IMG/VR virus record: IMGVR_UViG_3300017767_000070
Coordinates: 1-30,297 of that record
Reading direction: 5' to 3' (one strand)
Source: a virus
DNA: 30,297 nt
The notes under the pieces were generated by a model, which did not search any database, was not told where the DNA came from, and was given only the letters and a program-made list of their open reading frames with translations. Shown here piece by piece: positions 193 to 30,147 of this stretch (position 1 is the stretch's first letter; the number at the start of each line of letters is the position of its first letter). A program made the position numbers and the translations under genes.

Positions 193-744
193 ATGAATAT
201 TATATTATTAAAGCACGGCACTAAATATAGTGCTGCTGATGTAAATAAAATCTATATCGCTCTTAGTCCATATACATCTGCAAAATTTTACTGTTTTACA
301 GAAGATAAAACAGACGTAATTATAGATTGTATTGATATTCCAAAAAAACCAAATTTAATGAGGTGGTGGAATAAAATGCATTTATTTAGAGAAGACTTTG
401 AGTTAGAAGGTAAATGCATTTTGTTTGATCTAGATATTAAAATACTTTCTGATCCTTTCTCATACACAAAGAATGTGGATTGGAATTATCCAACATTTAT
501 GAAAGATCCATGGAAAAAAGATAAGTTTTTTAGAAAACACTCTTATGACACTGAACTTAATAGTTCAATTTTAGCTTGGACTTCACGAAAAAATTCATAC
601 ATTTGGGATATTTTTAGTAAGAACATAGATTATAATACTCGAAAATATAAAGGAATCGATAGATTTTTTTGGCATGAGAAAATAGAATGGAGAAGCTTTG
701 ACGATGGAATATATAACACCATTGCTTTACAGAAATACATTTAA
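193..744 (+). CDS. Putative glycosyltransferase-like protein with DxD motif
   Basis: A 183-residue protein that begins MNIILLKHGTKYSA and carries hydrophobic-ILFDLDIKIL at residues 76-85. The D79-L-D81 pair resembles the metal and nucleotide-sugar binding DxD motif of GT-A fold glycosyltransferases. It is shorter than full GT8-type enzymes, and the usual N-x-G segment after the DxD is not obvious (NSSILAW at about 123-129 may occupy that place). It is first of five co-oriented genes and its end overlaps the next. No Shine-Dalgarno sequence precedes the ATG; the late promoter is immediately upstream. The donor sugar and the acceptor are unknown. The glycosyltransferase assignment rests on the DxD context and on the neighbours. 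Confidence 0.6.
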   Translation: MNIILLKHGTKYSAADVNKIYIALSPYTSAKFYCFTEDKTDVIIDCIDIPKKPNLMRWWNKMHLFREDFELEGKCILFDLDIKILSDPFSYTKNVDWNYPTFMKDPWKKDKFFRKHSYDTELNSSILAWTSRKNSYIWDIFSKNIDYNTRKYKGIDRFFWHEKIEWRSFDDGIYNTIALQKYI

Positions 745-1339
745 TACTTTATCTTTTTTATATAAAAAATCTGCAGTAGAAGAAGAATTTGATCTATTTA
801 GAATAAAGGATGTTTTAGATTCTTTTAGTGAAGGACAAATTTTCAATAAACAGTGGGCGGTGCAAGAACTTAATAAGCTGATTGATATTACTCATGAAGA
901 ATGTTTAGTAATTGGAAGCTGGTATGGATTGTTTTCTCATATGTTAGCAGAATCTGGTTTTAAAGGTAAAATAATTAATATTGAATTAGATGATATGTGT
1001 AATAAGATAGCTAAAAAACTAAAAGTTTATGATAATATAATATTTAAACATGCAGATGGTATGGAAATATTTAATGAACTTAATTACGAAAATAAAATAC
1101 TAGTATGTACTGCATGTGAGCATATAAATGATGAAGAGTTGTCTTTTACCCTACAACAAAAACACGAGAACATGCTAACTTGTTTACAATCAAATAATTA
1201 TTATGAAATAAATAGTCATATTAATTGCAAAGATAATTTAGAAGATTTTGTAAAGAGTTTGCCTTTGAAAACTATAATGTATTCAGGAACGAAAAAATAT
1301 AAAAATGAATATGATAGATTTATGGTGATTGGAAAATGA
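704..1339 (+). CDS. Class I SAM-dependent methyltransferase-like protein
   Basis: About 211 residues. I chose the ATG at 704 over an in-frame TTG at 698, because GGAGA at 689-693 is better spaced from the ATG. The segment CLVIGSWYGLFSHMLAESG, followed by the acidic strand end IINIELDD, has the layout of Rossmann motif I and the adenine/ribose-binding acidic residue. The glycine loop is atypical (IGSWYG rather than GxGxG). A later LVCTACEHIND segment could be motif IV. The start lies inside the end of the preceding gene (about 40 bases of overlap) and the stop overlaps the next ATG in an ATGA arrangement, so it is translated as part of the cassette. It might methylate a sugar or a protein; the substrate is not visible. 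Confidence 0.6.
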   Translation: MEYITPLLYRNTFNTLSFLYKKSAVEEEFDLFRIKDVLDSFSEGQIFNKQWAVQELNKLIDITHEECLVIGSWYGLFSHMLAESGFKGKIINIELDDMCNKIAKKLKVYDNIIFKHADGMEIFNELNYENKILVCTACEHINDEELSFTLQQKHENMLTCLQSNNYYEINSHINCKDNLEDFVKSLPLKTIMYSGTKKYKNEYDRFMVIGK

Positions 1340-2235
1340 GAGTAATTTTTAGTGTATATATAGACTTTAATGAAAACGAATTTGAAAAAAATTATGACTT
1401 TGATAAAAACGTAAAAAATAAAAAAGAGTTTAAAGATAATTATAATTTTTTAAAAAGTTATCAACAAAAATATGCACAGCAATTAGGCATAGATTATATA
1501 TTGTATGAAAATGATAACAATTGGAAAGAATACAAAAAATATTTTGAAAATAATTATTCGTATATATCTAAATACAATATAGTTAATTTTTATAAAATTA
1601 AATTAATGTATGATTTATCAAAAACCTATGATGAAATTTTATATCTTGACTTTGATGTAGTACCGTTGACAAATGATAATATATTTGATAGTATAGATTT
1701 TAGTAATAGTATAGCATGTAAAGTAAATTATGAAAGAGACCCACATTATTATCTAATATACTCTACGGCAAGCATTATAAGACAAAAAGAAGAATATTAT
1801 AAAAGAACTGGAAAAACTTTTCCTGAAAGAGATCCTATAGCAAAATACTGGAATTGTAGAGCTTTATTAATGGAAAAGGGGTTTAACGGCGATAATGATG
1901 TATATAATACAGGAATAGTATTAGCAAATAAAGATCAATTAAATAAGTTAAACTACTTTGATAATTTCGATAAAACTTTAAAATTTATGCATGAAGTAAA
2001 AACAAACAAAGGCTTGTGGCCGTCTTTTATACAGAGCTCTTTTGGTTACGATAATGAAACGTTATTTAGTTTTAAAATGAAAGTAAATAATGTAAATCTT
2101 ATTGAGTTAGATGATGTGTGGCATTGGTCGCATAGAAAAAACACGAATTTTATCCCACGAGAAACTAAAATAGTTCATGTAATTAATAAAAACTTTGAGT
2201 CAGTAAAAAACTATGTCAAAAAACATAATCTTTAG
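1336..2235 (+). CDS. GT8-like glycosyltransferase with DxD motif
   Basis: A 299-residue protein. YDEILYLDFDVVPL at about 98-111 contains the DxD triad D105-F-D107. It is followed by VYNTGIVLAN (N-T-G at 191-193) and, near the end, KIVHVINKNF with H281. This order (DxD, NxG, late His) is the signature of GT-A retaining glycosyltransferases such as GT8. It shares motifs in the same order with the next gene, so the two look like paralogues. It starts at an ATGA overlap with the methyltransferase-like gene. No signal peptide or membrane segment is seen, so action in the host cytoplasm is likely. Donor and acceptor are unknown. Confidence 0.7.
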   Translation: MRVIFSVYIDFNENEFEKNYDFDKNVKNKKEFKDNYNFLKSYQQKYAQQLGIDYILYENDNNWKEYKKYFENNYSYISKYNIVNFYKIKLMYDLSKTYDEILYLDFDVVPLTNDNIFDSIDFSNSIACKVNYERDPHYYLIYSTASIIRQKEEYYKRTGKTFPERDPIAKYWNCRALLMEKGFNGDNDVYNTGIVLANKDQLNKLNYFDNFDKTLKFMHEVKTNKGLWPSFIQSSFGYDNETLFSFKMKVNNVNLIELDDVWHWSHRKNTNFIPRETKIVHVINKNFESVKNYVKKHNL

Positions 2236-3007
2236 TATATGGTCAGATTTAACTGAAGAGCACACGTCAGTTAATGATTATAAAAAAAAATCATTTCAAA
2301 TCTATAAAAATAAACTTATAGAATTACAAAAAAAATATGCCTACTATTGTAAAGCAGACTATGAAATATTTAAACCTAAATCAACCGATTATGCAAATGT
2401 TCAATTTGATAAAATTTTTAAATTAGAAGAGTTGTGCAAGTATTATGACAATGTAGTTTATTTTGACTTAGATGTTATTCCAAATACACGTTATAATATT
2501 TTTAACAGTTTTAACTTTGATAACATTTGTGTTTATGAATATCCAATAGATACAGCTGATGAAATGGCCAGAACTATTTCTACTCGCATTAAAAACGGAG
2601 CACCTATTTCTGCTATGAATAGATATTCAAAAGTTTGTGCAAAAAACGCTATGCTATTAATTAATGATATAGCAGGAAATGAAAATATAGTTAACACCGG
2701 TGTCGTTTGTGGAAATGCAAAATCCATTAATAATTTAAAATTTAGTGATAGAATGAATGAAATGAATAAAACTTTAAACATAGCTATGAAAGACAATTTA
2801 TATCCAGATGAGATATCTAAGGCTTGGATAAAAAATAATGAAGTTTATTTTTTATATCTTTTAGAACGATATAAAATAAAATTTAATAATATAGGAATAC
2901 AGTGGAATTATATATTAGATGATCTCGTTAGTAAACCAACTGCAGCTGCACACTTAATACATCAAGTAAATAAGGATTTTCATGTCACTATATCCAGACT
3001 CAACTAG
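2213..3007 (+). CDS. GT8-like glycosyltransferase, paralogue of the preceding gene
   Basis: A 264-residue protein with YDNVVYFDLDVIPN (DLD at 85-87), IVNTGVVCGN (N-T-G at 161-163) and a C-terminal AHLIHQVNKDFH. Each of these segments aligns in order with the preceding 299-residue protein, which supports a duplication followed by divergence. The ATG at 2213 lies 23 bases inside the preceding reading frame, and its own C-terminus overlaps the radical SAM gene. The two paralogues may add successive sugars or act on different acceptors; nothing in the sequence decides this. Confidence 0.68.
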   Translation: MSKNIIFSIWSDLTEEHTSVNDYKKKSFQIYKNKLIELQKKYAYYCKADYEIFKPKSTDYANVQFDKIFKLEELCKYYDNVVYFDLDVIPNTRYNIFNSFNFDNICVYEYPIDTADEMARTISTRIKNGAPISAMNRYSKVCAKNAMLLINDIAGNENIVNTGVVCGNAKSINNLKFSDRMNEMNKTLNIAMKDNLYPDEISKAWIKNNEVYFLYLLERYKIKFNNIGIQWNYILDDLVSKPTAAAHLIHQVNKDFHVTISRLN

Positions 3008-4115
3008 ATTTAAATTTTGGAGAAATCCTTATAATATAGTTCTTGATACTACAACATATTGTAATGCAAAGTGCCCGCAATGCCATAGAACTAATTCTGC
3101 CGAAGGTGCAAAATTATCATTTCAAGGAAAAATAACAAAAAGCTTACCATTACTACATGTTCCATTAGAAAAAATTAAAAAAGGTTTCAGTCCTAATGTT
3201 CTTAAAAAATGTAAAAATATACAGTTATGTCCTACATGGGGCGACCATATGATGCATAAACACGCATCTGAAATAATAGAATATTTTTTAAGTTCAGATA
3301 GAAATGTTACTGTATCTGTCAACACGAATGGCAGTATGAGAGATGAGCTGTATTGGTGGAGAATGTGTGCTCAAGGCGTAAAGTACAAATCAAGATACGG
3401 TGTGAGAAGACTACGTATTACGTTTGATGTTGATGGAATTAATCAAGAAATGCATGGCTTATATAGAAGAAATACTAATTTGAAGAAAATCTTAGCGCAC
3501 ATGAAAGTCGCTTCTGAATTTAAAGATCATGTAATAGTACGAACTCAAACTGTGTTATTTAAACATAATCAAGATTATTTAAAAGAAATTGAAGAGCTTT
3601 GTAAGTCATATGGGTCTGAAAGTCACTCATCAGTAATTAGTGATAGATTCTATAATAATCAAAGTGAAAGCGAAGATGTCTACCATTTCTATGATGAAAA
3701 TAATAAAAAACTAGCTTTACACCGCGTAACAGACGAGTGGAGGGATAATTTTAAAGAAGAAGGCGCACATATACCAAGAGGAACAATAAATGAAAACATT
3801 GAAAAACCTACGTGTGGGTGGTCTTTAACAAATGGATTAAATATTAATTTTGATGGTAATGTATGGCCATGTTGTTTCTTTGGTAATGCTTCAATAATGG
3901 CTCAGGATTGGTTTATTAAACATCATAAATTTATAGAAAAATACTATAATTACAATAATAACATTTATGAGACCGATATAGAAGATATTTTAAATAATGA
4001 CTGGTGGAAAGAATTACCTTATAACATAGAATCAGATAATCCAGTAAGACAATGTATGCGTCAATGCACTAAGCGCGTGCAAAAAGGTCAGCTTAGATTA
4101 TCAAATAGGTTATGA
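2982..4115 (+). CDS. Radical SAM enzyme with SPASM-like C-terminal cysteines
   Basis: A 377-residue protein with C27-x3-C31-x2-C34 (TYCNAKCPQCHR), the radical SAM [4Fe-4S] cluster motif, on the first predicted strand. Further typical features are SVNTNGS at about 112-118 and DVDGINQEMHG at about 149-159. The C-terminal part has C278, NFDGNVWPCC (C297, C298), and C358-x3-C362, resembling a SPASM or twitch domain that binds auxiliary Fe-S clusters. SPASM proteins often modify peptides or proteins, but no precursor peptide is visible here. AAGGA at 2972-2976 is a good ribosome binding site for the ATG at 2982. It closes the cassette and its stop overlaps the stop of the convergent 161-residue gene. 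Confidence 0.85.
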   Translation: MSLYPDSTRFKFWRNPYNIVLDTTTYCNAKCPQCHRTNSAEGAKLSFQGKITKSLPLLHVPLEKIKKGFSPNVLKKCKNIQLCPTWGDHMMHKHASEIIEYFLSSDRNVTVSVNTNGSMRDELYWWRMCAQGVKYKSRYGVRRLRITFDVDGINQEMHGLYRRNTNLKKILAHMKVASEFKDHVIVRTQTVLFKHNQDYLKEIEELCKSYGSESHSSVISDRFYNNQSESEDVYHFYDENNKKLALHRVTDEWRDNFKEEGAHIPRGTINENIEKPTCGWSLTNGLNINFDGNVWPCCFFGNASIMAQDWFIKHHKFIEKYYNYNNNIYETDIEDILNNDWWKELPYNIESDNPVRQCMRQCTKRVQKGQLRLSNRL

Positions 4116-26268: not shown

Positions 26269-26859
26269 ATGAGTAACTTATTTCAAAAACTAGAACTTGA
26301 AGCTTTTCGTGCAGGAATTAATCCTCGTACACAAGAATCACGTGATTGGTTTCGTAAAAGAATTCAAAGACTTACAAGAGTTAACCGTGATGCTTTAATG
26401 AGAGAAGATGAAATTAATCGTAGAGCATCTCATAGTTATGGTTCTATGTTTATGTACTTTTATGATCCTAAGCATAAAGACAAATTACCTTTCTACGACA
26501 GGTTTCCATTAACTATACCAGTTGAACCCGCTCCTGGCGGATTTAGAGGAATCAATTTACATTATCTTCCTCCAGTGTTGAGGGCAAAGTTCTTAGATGC
26601 ATTATTAGATGCAACTAATAACAAAAAATATGATGAATCTACAAGATTTAAATTAACATACGATTTGTTAAAAGGTGCACGAAAAATGAGATATTTTCAA
26701 CCGTGTTTCAAACATTATTTGCTTGCACACGTTAAATCGCGATTTGCTGAAGTACCGGCACCTGAATGGGAAATAGCAGCATTTTTACCTACTGCGCAAT
26801 GGGAGAAAGCATCTGCAGGAACAGTTTATCAGAATTCAAGGATGAAAGTAAATGGCTAA
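26269..26859 (+). CDS. Conserved phage protein, 196 aa, probably virion- or head/tail-completion-related
   Basis: A 196-residue basic protein. The core GSMFMYFYDPKHKDKLPFYD (58-77) with RFPLTIPVEP and GINLHYLPPVLRAKFLDALL (94-113) is a pattern I recall from proteins of many T4-like and other myoviruses, but I cannot attach a proven function. The N-terminus is rich in Arg (RKRIQRLTRVNRDAL). It follows gp4 by 8 bases and overlaps the tube-fold gene by 8 bases. It has no Shine-Dalgarno sequence, and the late promoter is directly upstream, so its mRNA from that promoter would be leaderless. Translation from gp4 read-through mRNA is also possible. Confidence 0.7.
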   Translation: MSNLFQKLELEAFRAGINPRTQESRDWFRKRIQRLTRVNRDALMREDEINRRASHSYGSMFMYFYDPKHKDKLPFYDRFPLTIPVEPAPGGFRGINLHYLPPVLRAKFLDALLDATNNKKYDESTRFKLTYDLLKGARKMRYFQPCFKHYLLAHVKSRFAEVPAPEWEIAAFLPTAQWEKASAGTVYQNSRMKVNG

Positions 26860-27532
26860 TAGTATTGAAGATCTTAAAGCATTAATGAACACTAAGTTAG
26901 GTTTTGCTAGACCAAATAAATTTTTAGTTACATTACCTAGTGTAGGAGTTGGTGGTGGTTTACTTAATGGTATAGTAGGAGCATTTAGTGGAATGGGCGG
27001 AGGAGCGAGTCCAAGAGAATTAAATATTTTGTGTTCAAATGCGACTTTGCCAGCAAAACAAATATTAACTAATGATAGAAGAATTGGAATGGAATTTCAA
27101 AAAGTAGCTTACGGTTATGCAGTTGATGACGTAAGTATGACTTTTTATTTAATGAACGATTATGGAGTAAAAGATTATTTTGATAGTTGGAGAAGCACTA
27201 TACTTGATGAAACAGGACAAGCATCTAACTATAAAAATGAATATGCTAAAACAGTAACTATACATCAATTAAGACAACCATTGAAAGGTTTTAGCAAACA
27301 ATTAGGACCTATAAGATTTAATGCAGGTATTGGTGGTGGAAGTGTCTATTCAGTAGATTTACTTGAAGCTTTTCCAATAGCATCTAGTGCAATTGAATTG
27401 AATAATGATCTTGATGGTTTAGTGCAATTGACTGTAACATTTGCATATACGAACTGGAGAAGAGCCAGTGGTGTACAGAACTTTATCAATATGGATATTG
27501 ATACACCATTAGGCGGAATTGATATAATATAA
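26852..27532 (+). CDS. Tail-tube-fold protein (gp19/gp54 family)
   Basis: A 226-residue protein. GFARPNKFLVTLP (17-29), ILCSNATLPAKQI (59-71), VSMTFYLMNDYGVKDYFDSW (94-113) and the C-terminal VQLTVTFAYTNWRR are the tail-tube fold pattern; T4 gp19 has ARPNLFQVEI, CKATALPAG and FEVTLALDYW at the equivalent places. A Gly-rich loop (about 32-52) is inserted. Its place next to gp26 and the tape measure, rather than beside a sheath gene, suggests either the gp54 tube initiator or the major tube protein. It uses AAGGATG-type spacing for its ATG at 26852. Which of the two roles it has cannot be decided here. Confidence 0.75.
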   Translation: MANSIEDLKALMNTKLGFARPNKFLVTLPSVGVGGGLLNGIVGAFSGMGGGASPRELNILCSNATLPAKQILTNDRRIGMEFQKVAYGYAVDDVSMTFYLMNDYGVKDYFDSWRSTILDETGQASNYKNEYAKTVTIHQLRQPLKGFSKQLGPIRFNAGIGGGSVYSVDLLEAFPIASSAIELNNDLDGLVQLTVTFAYTNWRRASGVQNFINMDIDTPLGGIDII

Positions 27533-27542
27533 GGAGTAAAAT

Positions 27543-28259
27543 ATGGCGCTGCCAGTATTATCTAACGATAAACCAATGTATGAGGTAGTAGTACCTTCAT
27601 CACAAGAAACGTTTAAGTTTCGACCTTTTCTTGTTAAAGAACAGAAAAGTCTATTAATTGCATATGAATCTCAAGACATGAAACAGATTTTAAATGCTAT
27701 GATAAATTGCATTGAAACATGTGTGCCAGGAATAAACATCAAAGAGCTCGCAACCTTTGATGTTGATTACGTATTTACACAAGTAAGAGCAAAGTCAGTT
27801 GGAGAAACTTCAACTATAAGATCTGCATGTGTAGATTGCAATGAAGAAAATGAAGTTGTAATTAATTTAGAAGAAGTAAAAATGAAAGCTTCTGAAATTA
27901 AAACTAAAATGATTCCAATTACAGATACAGTAAGTATTGAAATGAAATACCCAACCTATGATGATATGTTGCGTAATCCTAACTACAATAATCCAGCTGG
28001 ATCACAAGCAGAATTATTATTTGAATCAATTATAAGTTGTATGTATTCAGTACAAACTGGTGATGATAAAATTATCATAAGTCAAGAATCAAGAGAAGAA
28101 ATAGAAAAATTTGTAAATTCTCTTACTAACGAACAATTAACAAAGATTACAGATTTCGTGGAAAGCATGCCTGCAATGCAACATGAAGAAAAGTTTACTT
28201 GTAAAAAATGTCAACATGAAAATACTGTGCAATTGAAAGGCTTACAAGATTTTTTTTAA
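27543..28259 (+). CDS. 26: Baseplate hub assembly/tail chaperone protein gp26 (T4_baseplate family)
   Basis: A 238-residue protein with the gp26 layout: FKFRPFLVKEQKSLLIAYES (24-43), a Cys pair C96-V-D-C99, a second pair C220-K-K-C223 and the ending NTVQLKGLQDFF. The four cysteines could form one zinc site. T4 gp26 is needed for hub formation. By gene order (tube, this gene, short second-frame ORF, tape measure) it is the counterpart of lambda gpG-type tail chaperones; this is inference. AAGGAG lies before the ATG at 27543. The last sense codons are TTT TTT, followed directly by TAA, inside a T-run suited to -1 slippage. Confidence 0.85.
   Translation: MALPVLSNDKPMYEVVVPSSQETFKFRPFLVKEQKSLLIAYESQDMKQILNAMINCIETCVPGINIKELATFDVDYVFTQVRAKSVGETSTIRSACVDCNEENEVVINLEEVKMKASEIKTKMIPITDTVSIEMKYPTYDDMLRNPNYNNPAGSQAELLFESIISCMYSVQTGDDKIIISQESREEIEKFVNSLTNEQLTKITDFVESMPAMQHEEKFTCKKCQHENTVQLKGLQDFF
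28250..28256 (+). other. Candidate -1 ribosomal frameshift site
   Basis: Bases 28250-28256 read T TTT TTT in the gp26 frame, a heptamer of the X XXY YYZ class, directly followed by the TAA stop at 28257. Slipping back one base continues TTA ATT AAC CTC and stays open to TGA at 28439-28441. No strong downstream stem-loop is evident; the stop codon itself could supply the pause. Confidence 0.6.
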
Positions 28260-28441
28260 TTAACCTCTCTCATGAAACCTTGGAGAATTACTTCAAGACT
28301 AATTTTTTGATGATGCAACATTTCAACTATTCTTTATCTGACTTAGAAGAAATGTTACCGTGGGAGAGAGAGGTATATTTAATGTTACTTAATGATCACT
28401 TAGAAGAAAGAGCACGAGAGGAACAGAGGCAAGCAAGATGA
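28256..28441 (+). CDS. gp51-like short ORF, probable C-terminal part of a gp26 frameshift fusion
   Basis: In the -1 frame relative to gp26 the sequence encodes LINLSHETLENYFKTNFLMM, QHFNYSLSDLEEMLPWEREV, YLMLLNDHLEERAREEQRQA and R before TGA. The block NYSLSDLEEMLPWEREVYLM resembles short ORFs after gp26 in T4-like phages that are sometimes called gp51. The first in-frame ATG is 28310 (43 residues), without a ribosome binding site at the right spacing, so expression through slippage at 28250-28256 is favoured. This would give a 299-residue fusion (238 + 61). The stop overlaps the tape-measure ATG (ATGA). It is acidic and helical, and a chaperone role for tail assembly is inferred. Confidence 0.65.
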   Translation, partial: LINLSHETLENYFKTNFLMMQHFNYSLSDLEEMLPWEREVYLMLLNDHLEERAREEQRQAR

Positions 28442-30147
28442 CAACATTAGCAGAAGTCAATGCAACTTTAGGCGTAACTAATTTAGCACTATCAGGCGTA
28501 GCAAAAGAACAGAAACAAACTAATGAAGGTATTTCAAAGTTTGTTGATTTCATGAAAAGTAAAGATACGCGTGATAGAAGAGAAGACATAGAAACTAATA
28601 GAGAAACTAAAGCTTCTGTTATAAGTCGTGTTGGTGGTGCTGCTGGTGCAGTAGGAAGTGGTGCAAAAAAAGGATTCGGTTTAGGTAAAGACTTGTTTTC
28701 GAAATTAGGTGGTATTTTACCTATAGGGTTAGCCGGTACTTTTTTAACGAGTCTACTTGGATCTAAAATGTTTAGATTTGGTGTAGCTGGTTTAGGTGTA
28801 ATGTTTGGTGATCGCATAGCTGAAATGCTGACGGGTGAAGACGCTAAACAAGAAGTAAAAGATACGTTAGGCGGTGTTATAAAAGGTGGTGCACTTGGAT
28901 TTTTACTTGGACCTAGATTTGCATTAATAGGTGGCATATTAGGTGGTTTATTAAAAAATGAAACCGTAGATAAAGAAGCTGGAGAATTATTAATTAACTT
29001 AAGAAAATTAGAAGTCAAATTTCCGGCAATAAGTACTTTTTTTAAGGGATTTGGCGATGCAGTCGGCAGTGGTTTAAAAAGTATTAATAATTTACTTGAA
29101 GGTAAAAGTGAAAATACATTTAAAGATATAGGTAAGAGTTTACTATTAGTAGGCGGCGTTGCAGCGCTCTTTATGCCCGGAAAAATATTAGCACTATTGG
29201 CTGGAGCTTCGAGGTTAATGATGGCTACACCCGCAGGTGCGGCATTATTAGCAATTGCTGGTGGTGGCGTAGGTATTAATAAATTAATGGGTAATGAAGC
29301 AACTGATTCAAGCGGGTTCATAGCTAGTACCGCCGCTACTGGAGCTGCATTGTACGGTGGTAAAAAGGTTGTTGATAAATTCAAAGGAAAAAGTTCTGTC
29401 AGTAAAGCACCAGATATAGATCCAGCAAGTAAAGGATTAAAAGGTAAAGATGGTGCAGAAGGTAAAATCGATAAAGGGTTGATGAAATCATTAAGTAAAT
29501 ACCCGAGACTAGCAAAGTTCTTAAAATTTGCAGGAAGATTTGGTGGACTAGGTACTTTACTTGGTGTTGGTGAAATACTTAATATGGCGAGAACTGGTAA
29601 TGTTACAGTGGACGCAGTAAGCGGTTTGTTTGGTGGTATACTTGGTGGAGTAGGTGGAACTAAATTAGGTGCAGCACTAGGATCCTTTTTCCCTGGCCCC
29701 GGCACAATTTTAGGTGGTATAGTAGGTGGTGGTTTAGGTTACTTTGCAGGTGACACTGTTGCAAAAGGATTAAGCCAGTGGATGCTAGGTAAAAAGGTCG
29801 ACGCCTTTGGATTTGACGCAATAAATAATTTATTCAATGACGCAGGTGCTTCGTCCTCATCAAAATCTGCAGGCAGTGTACAAACTAGTGATGAGTTAGC
29901 TAAAGCATCTAAAATAAATGCAAATAGTAGAGTACGAAATCAGTTTGAAGCCAATCGAAACATTGGCGGAACAACTGCCAGCGGGATGGATCCTACTGGT
30001 AATGCTGGTGATGTTAATATGGTAAACTCTAATAATAGAACTGTGACTACAAACAACAGCGCCGGAGTAGTATTAGATACCGCCGGCGCTGTTGATAGAC
30101 AAGATAATCTAAGTAATCAGATTAAAAATCCTAGTAATTTATTCTAA
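28438..30147 (+). CDS. Tape-measure-like tail protein
   Basis: A 569-residue protein, close to T4 gp29 (590 aa). Residues about 20-60 are charged and helical (KEQKQTNEGISKFVDFMKSK). Beyond these follow many Gly/Ala/Leu-rich hydrophobic stretches such as GILPIGLAGTFLTSLLGSKM (92-111), GALGFLLGP, ALIGGILGGLL and LLLVGGVAALF, typical of tape-measure proteins that can enter membranes. Asn/Ser/Gly-rich sequence ends it. The place directly after the tube-fold gene and the gp26/frameshift pair is the usual one for a tape measure. The ATG overlaps the preceding TGA. Sequence similarity to gp29 is not obvious, so a lysis- or injection-related membrane protein remains possible. Confidence 0.68.
   Translation: MTTLAEVNATLGVTNLALSGVAKEQKQTNEGISKFVDFMKSKDTRDRREDIETNRETKASVISRVGGAAGAVGSGAKKGFGLGKDLFSKLGGILPIGLAGTFLTSLLGSKMFRFGVAGLGVMFGDRIAEMLTGEDAKQEVKDTLGGVIKGGALGFLLGPRFALIGGILGGLLKNETVDKEAGELLINLRKLEVKFPAISTFFKGFGDAVGSGLKSINNLLEGKSENTFKDIGKSLLLVGGVAALFMPGKILALLAGASRLMMATPAGAALLAIAGGGVGINKLMGNEATDSSGFIASTAATGAALYGGKKVVDKFKGKSSVSKAPDIDPASKGLKGKDGAEGKIDKGLMKSLSKYPRLAKFLKFAGRFGGLGTLLGVGEILNMARTGNVTVDAVSGLFGGILGGVGGTKLGAALGSFFPGPGTILGGIVGGGLGYFAGDTVAKGLSQWMLGKKVDAFGFDAINNLFNDAGASSSSKSAGSVQTSDELAKASKINANSRVRNQFEANRNIGGTTASGMDPTGNAGDVNMVNSNNRTVTTNNSAGVVLDTAGAVDRQDNLSNQIKNPSNLF
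30055..30093 (+). other. GC-rich hairpin near the end of the tape-measure gene
   Basis: Left arm AACAGCGCCGG (30055-30065) and right arm CCGGCGCTGTT (30083-30093) are perfect 11-bp inverted repeats around a 17-base loop. They stand out in AT-rich DNA. No T-run follows on either strand, so it is not a classical intrinsic terminator. Confidence 0.65.

Follow-up and report, generated by a model that had tools for sequence, protein, structure and literature searches.

The gp26 gene and the gp51-like reading frame behind it very probably specify a short and a long version of a single tail assembly chaperone, an equivalent of lambda gpG/gpGT, with the long form made by a -1 slip at the end of gp26. 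The window (the whole stretch of DNA analysed, 30,297 nt) is a 30.3-kb virus fragment from IMG/VR that belongs to an uncultured marine T4-like phage and has a GC content of 33%, and its + strand carries from 25703 a row of genes for head closure, DNA end protector, tail tube, gp26, and a 569-aa tail protein. As shown in Table 1, gp26 ends in GAT TTT TTT TAA and the T7 heptamer abuts the stop codon, just as the original prediction had described. The open -1 frame that it had reported was also found, giving a fusion of 238 + 61 = 299 aa and ending in a TGA that shares bases with the start codon of the following gene (ATGA).

Table 1. Features of the gp26 locus in the window.
Feature	Coordinates	Strand	Evidence or energy
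Tail tube-like gene (context, immediately upstream of gp26)	26852..27532	+	phrog_45 E 2.3e-28
RBS AAGGAG of gp26	27531-27536		-8.5 kcal/mol
gp26-like tail assembly chaperone, short form (TAC-N), 238 aa	27543..28259	+	PF12322 E 1.2e-58, phrog_150 E 5.9e-60, TAC-like fold
SD-like AAAGG, ends 9 nt 5' of heptamer	28236..28240	+	-3.2 kcal/mol
Slippery heptamer T_TTT_TTT (T TTT TTN in relatives)	28250..28256	+	
0-frame stop TAA, directly 3' of heptamer	28257..28259	+	
-1 frame extension, 61 codons + TGA (28439-28441); gp51-like; TAC-C of long form	28256..28441	+	phrog_634 E 3e-23
Long-range helix 5' arm ACCTCTCTC, begins 7 nt past heptamer	28263..28271	+	
Predicted inner hairpin CTTGGAG/CTTCAAG within long-range loop	28279..28297	+	MFE structure only
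Long-range helix 3' arm GAGAGAGGT, codons around PWEREVY	28366..28374	+	
Putative tape measure protein, 569 aa	28438..30147	+	position, phrog_1047 E 1.8e-11, phrog_23574 E 5.8e-4

Gene context and identity of the encoded protein

The gene after the extension had been called the tape measure gene. Its position and weak PHROG matches agree with this, and the profile comparison found no T4 gp29 match for its product; the assignment is putative. In the window, the ORF after the -1 extension encodes a large tail-like protein. Small ORFs intervene before this gene in some relatives, as in Pelagibacter, Methylophilales, and rhizobial phages (L003, L004, L006, and L007), which have one or two of them. 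No tape-measure-like gene follows the chaperone pair of Delftia phage PhiW-14 or of Vibrio phage D531 (L097 and L098), where a terminator and uvsW, or a tail lysozyme region, come next instead. The public annotation of the extension varies: it is absent in ACG-2014e, ACG-2014d, and ACG-2014b, and other records give it as a separate gp51 with differing start positions. Elsewhere in the window (193-4115), glycosyltransferase-like ORFs and a radical-SAM-like protein (2982-4115, carrying CNAKCPQC) lie near tail genes, as judged by eye only.

By homology, gp26 belongs to the T4-type gp26/gp51 tail chaperones (PF12322; 198.9 bits against a cut-off of 24.5). The family matched by the extension, phrog_634, is annotated as "baseplate hub assembly catalyst", and T4 gp26 and gp51 are both listed as hub assembly chaperones, with gp51 missing from the final particle (PMC3004832). 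With hhalign, the fusion and T4-type gp51 aligned from one end to the other (99.4%, 243 columns), and the short form aligned with gp26 of T4-type phages (99.5%). The extension scored 96.7% against the gp51 C-terminus and 0.5% against gp26, the controls gp27 and gp28 scored 0.1-2.9%, and T4 gp26 scored 98.3% against T4 gp51.

The short form was modelled with AlphaFold2 (pLDDT 91.8). Foldseek found nothing significant for this model in the PDB, so the fold similarity rests on a second structure aligner. There, residues 1-96 matched 3fgx (Bacillus; Z 7.7), YqbN 3klu (Z 7.2), and the HK97 chaperone 2ob9 (Z 6.8), and the next structure had a Z of 2.6. We take 3fgx and 3klu, both Bacillus proteins, to be relatives of the HK97 chaperone. 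A Z below 8 is modest by itself, but the HK97 chaperone and its relatives as the top three would be hard to get by chance. The homology to T4 gp26/gp51 and the fold similarity to HK97 gp13 and YqbN support the predicted role of the pair as a tail-chaperone equivalent with a short and a long form. In addition, gp26 has two CxxC pairs (residues 96-99 and 220-223) with weak zinc-ribbon matches, and a PDB sequence search with gp26 gave just weak RPB9 matches. The cysteines are missing in several cyanophage relatives, and a possible metal site may have been lost or gained.

Conservation of the slippery site and the -1 extension

The T-run by itself was dropped as evidence. The window is not T7-rich, with 17 T7 runs observed against 42 expected from shuffling, yet such runs are not rare as such, and the weight therefore rests on the comparison of relatives. 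The first set comprised 102 gp26 loci, 80 of them from IMG/VR and the others from annotated phages of Synechococcus, Prochlorococcus, Pelagibacter, Methylophilales, Vibrio, Rhizobium, Sinorhizobium, Agrobacterium, Stenotrophomonas, Delftia, Aeromonas, and Ochrobactrum; 55 representatives had a gp26 identity below 60%. The second set comprised 229 further IMG/VR records from three more scans with other lineages, and some contigs recur between the sets.

All 229 records and 101 of the 102 loci carry T_TTT_TTN, read in the frame of gp26, at one and the same Phe-Phe (330/331), the Delftia and Stenotrophomonas phages among them. The second Phe-position codon of the 101 loci was TTC in 58, TTT in 38, TTA in 3, and TTG in 2, and T6C was also the commonest form in the further records (180/229). 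This is the comparison of junctions proposed with the original prediction, and the second ORF lay in the -1 phase in every locus and record of both sets. The gp26 stop followed the heptamer after 0 codons (30 loci) or 1 codon (66 loci), and rarely later, in the 102 loci. Past this stop the extension ran for 51-68 codons in both sets and for 53-65 in the 102 loci wherever complete. Moreover, the residue before the two Phe varies (D, S, N, G) while its codon always ends in T among the 55 representatives (P 10^-11.3 from same-gene codon use), and TTT is the only codon used for the first Phe (P 10^-9.4). The synonymous constraint at the heptamer reached a z of 12.8 in the same representatives. The sole exception was Vibrio phage D531 (2046-2082), which reads TCA CTT TTC AAG TAA and has no T_TTT_TTN. 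Its homologous -1 extension remains open, and a U_UUC tetramer could serve for slippage in place of the heptamer.

The extension matched 548 phage records in tblastn. Differences at -1 frame codon positions 1, 2, and 3 numbered 4584, 1980, and 8258 in 416 close pairs, a pattern that indicates selection on the -1 ORF at the protein level, as judged from codon positions. The block SLSDLEEMLPWEREVY, which had looked conserved from a single sequence, is truly so among relatives: a conserved LSHxxLxNYY..NF starts four codons past the slip site, and L4, H6, and L9 of the extension are 83-91% conserved.

RNA elements around the slippery site and alternative explanations

A compact 70-nt downstream hairpin was weak as the stimulator of the window (z -1.4), and a long-range helix took its place. 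When 12-nt arms were scanned against the following 150 nt, with resampled synonymous codons as the control, offsets +3 and +6 after the heptamer stood out with mean z values of -2.8 and -2.9, compared with +0.2 to -0.7 elsewhere. The 5' arm of the family lies about 7-16 nt past the heptamer, and its usual partner is formed by codons 35-38 (PWERE), about 90 nt away. Register i+j=121 (nt after the heptamer), which joins third codon positions to third codon positions, had at least 8 of 9 positions paired in 54% of 48 representatives, compared with at most 8% for other registers. The wobble pairs 3-38 and 4-37 ranked first and third among 666 in this set. In the 48 unselected representatives, the cells paired, the cells changed on both sides, and the covariation score were all above all 500 shuffles; against slid registers the excess was clear for the first two, and the covariation score equalled that of the -1 slide.

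These patterns recurred in a held-out set of 109 loci, whose junctions shared less than 80% identity with one another and with the first set. Register i+j=121 peaked again (42%, others at most 1%), the arm scan gave z values of -2.2 and -2.6, and wobble pairs 3-38 and 4-37 ranked first and second of 666. The Fisher p, which ignores residual relatedness, was 2e-6 for 3-38 and 3e-7 for 4-37 (CTC/CTT with GAG/GAA: 27, 10, 1, and 20). In 48 loci without the family register, the 5' arm was paired above chance with other partners at +20 to +130 (mean z -1.9; 48% below -2). In the P-SSM2 group, the arm folds into an 11-bp hairpin that spans +6 to +36 after the heptamer and contains a U-A/G-C/A-U pair; a shorter hairpin is found in some lineages. 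RNAalifold predicted no pairs on 48 diverse sequences, probably because lineages use different partners, and a consensus helix appeared only when loci were chosen for keeping it. Rfam gave no match at 28100-28560. In the window, the two arms of Table 1 pair with each other, the MFE of 124 nt is -31.3 kcal/mol, and the arm scan reached a z of -6.4 at offset +3; the best helix register is 4 nt off that of the family. RNA structure of the kind seen in dnaX and IS911 signals is thus predicted shortly 3' of the heptamer, and this long-range helix closely behind the slip site appears to be deeply conserved.

The other element of dnaX/IS911-type signals, an SD-like stretch 5' of the heptamer, was present in the family and weak in the window (AAAGG). 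The family stretch, which ends about 7-10 nt 5' of the heptamer and is strong in many relatives, encodes a conserved Glu/Lys-Gly (GAG GGN). Its pairing energy exceeded synonymous controls with a z of -7.1 in the first set and -12.4 in the held-out set, and GAG was over-used at the site (17/27 against 316/1269, p 4e-5). Marine T4-like phages probably tune the ratio of short to long chaperone with the helix (-1 codons 3-6 with 35-38) and the SD-like element, and the pairing partner would be swapped while the 5' arm is kept.

The helix could instead be real but serve to mask the SD-like purine stretch of PWERE from internal initiation, with no stimulation of frameshifting. The 3' arm is indeed SD-like, and a start codon in some frame lies 5-14 nt behind it in 47 of 87 helix loci. 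Yet it is the 5' arm, immediately after the heptamer, that stays constant, and loci without the family register still pair this arm elsewhere, e.g., in the +6 to +36 hairpin of P-SSM2, so we consider masking unlikely, though it is the most credible of the alternatives.

It is much less probable that gp51 is an independent gene, with its own start or with termination-reinitiation at the gp26 stop, as most public records annotate it from varied starts and as the ATG right after the gp26 stop in the P-SSM2 and S-PM2 groups might suggest. The phase and heptamer are invariant among relatives, and the first nine codons of the extension lack ATG in 42 of 54 representatives and ATG, GTG, and TTG in 26 of 54; in the latter, independent initiation could not yield the conserved part. 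In the window, the starts that retain the conserved block (TTG 28280, TTG 28307, ATG 28310, and ATG 28313) have SD pairing of 0 to -0.7 kcal/mol, compared with -8.5 kcal/mol by the same measure for the ATG of gp26. The predicted lack of a well-placed internal ribosome binding site therefore holds for every start that keeps the block. It fails for ATG 28382 inside the -1 ORF, which has a strong SD-like purine stretch (-7.3 kcal/mol) and would give the last 19 residues only; these same purines make up the 3' arm of the long-range helix. Other phases of the second ORF and strong independent ribosome binding sites, either of which would have spoken against the original prediction, were looked for in relatives and not found.

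Equally improbable is a change of frame by transcriptional slippage on the T8 run that the window and its nearest relatives share, even though slippage during bacterial transcription does occur at runs of 9 A or T (PMC5009743). T6C, the form in most relatives (58/101 and 180/229), is short for polymerase slippage, and these relatives keep the SD-like and RNA-helix elements, which act on ribosomes. An assembly or homopolymer error, conceivable for an error-prone T8 in an IMG/VR virus fragment, was rejected as next to impossible, since the sequenced isolates P-SSM2, S-PM2, Mosig, Melnitz, and phiM7 carry the same architecture.

Proposed mechanism and comparison with known systems

From these data we infer a -1 slip that would proceed as follows. 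Most ribosomes would stop at the TAA at 28257 and yield the 238-aa short form (TAC-N), and a fraction would slip back one base on U_UUU_UUU to yield the 299-aa long form (TAC-NC) with 61 additional residues of a gp51-like domain. The SD-like element about 9 nt upstream and the helix 7 nt downstream, whose pairing (28263-28271/28366-28374) would close a loop of about 90 nt, would pause the ribosome and probably stimulate the slip as in dnaX and IS911. By analogy with lambda gpG and gpGT, whose roles are taken from PMC5009743, the short form would coat the tape measure protein, and recruitment of the tail tube protein would fall to the long form. U_UUU_UUU is less slippery than A_AAA_AAG in E. 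coli (PMC5009743), which counts against this best explanation; homogeneous pyrimidine motifs, the class that includes U_UUU_UUN, have been found prone to frameshifting in this bacterium (PMC4066793).

The chaperone assignment and frameshifting in T4-like phages have already been published (2022). In that study, frameshifting was reportedly found in several T4-like groups, with separate genes 26 and 51 in T4. PMC10885494 and PMC12846349 credit Vladimirov, Gautam & Davidson (2022; doi 10.1016/j.virol.2021.11.003) with identifying the T4-like tail chaperones. The SD-like element and the long-range helix were not mentioned in the literature searched, which comprised sources other than this 2022 Virology study, and the long-range RNA stimulator was probably undescribed before. 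The present reading corrects the annotation of a core tail gene, which many marine phage records show as split or with a part missing. It also supports the view that the puzzling T4 hub proteins gp26 and gp51 correspond to a frameshifted chaperone pair whose two members come from separate genes. If the role of the helix holds true, one stimulator would have been reinvented many times within a protein-coding region. The conserved helix itself provides a natural series, in hundreds of phages, for following the control of a frameshift ratio by an RNA fold and the ease with which such folds are exchanged within coding sequence during evolution.

Compared with the T4-like gp26/gp51 chaperones of the 2022 study, the pair described here belongs to the same gene family and follows the same logic of short and long forms, and our profile comparison agrees. 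In the TAC frameshift of Vandenendeviridae and Andersonviridae, a -1 TAC extension is likewise reached from a poly-T slip site, in other phage families and with the motif GTTTTT, according to excerpts of PMC12846349 in which an RNA stimulator is not mentioned. As in lambda gpG/gpGT, a -1 slip near the end of a chaperone gene, here one that precedes a putative tape measure gene, would give a short and a long form; the slippery site and the -1 extension are conserved as in that type, and the modelled short form has a TAC-like fold. Unlike in lambda, the sequence family and the heptamer are different, and the stop lies 0-1 codons past the slip site. With the signals of IS911, whose stimulator is a branched structure (PMC5009743, PMC4066793), and of E. 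coli dnaX, the locus shares an upstream SD-like element, a slippery heptamer, and a downstream structured RNA. However, the genes are unrelated, and the helix predicted here spans a coding loop of about 90 nt and links the wobble positions of distant codons.
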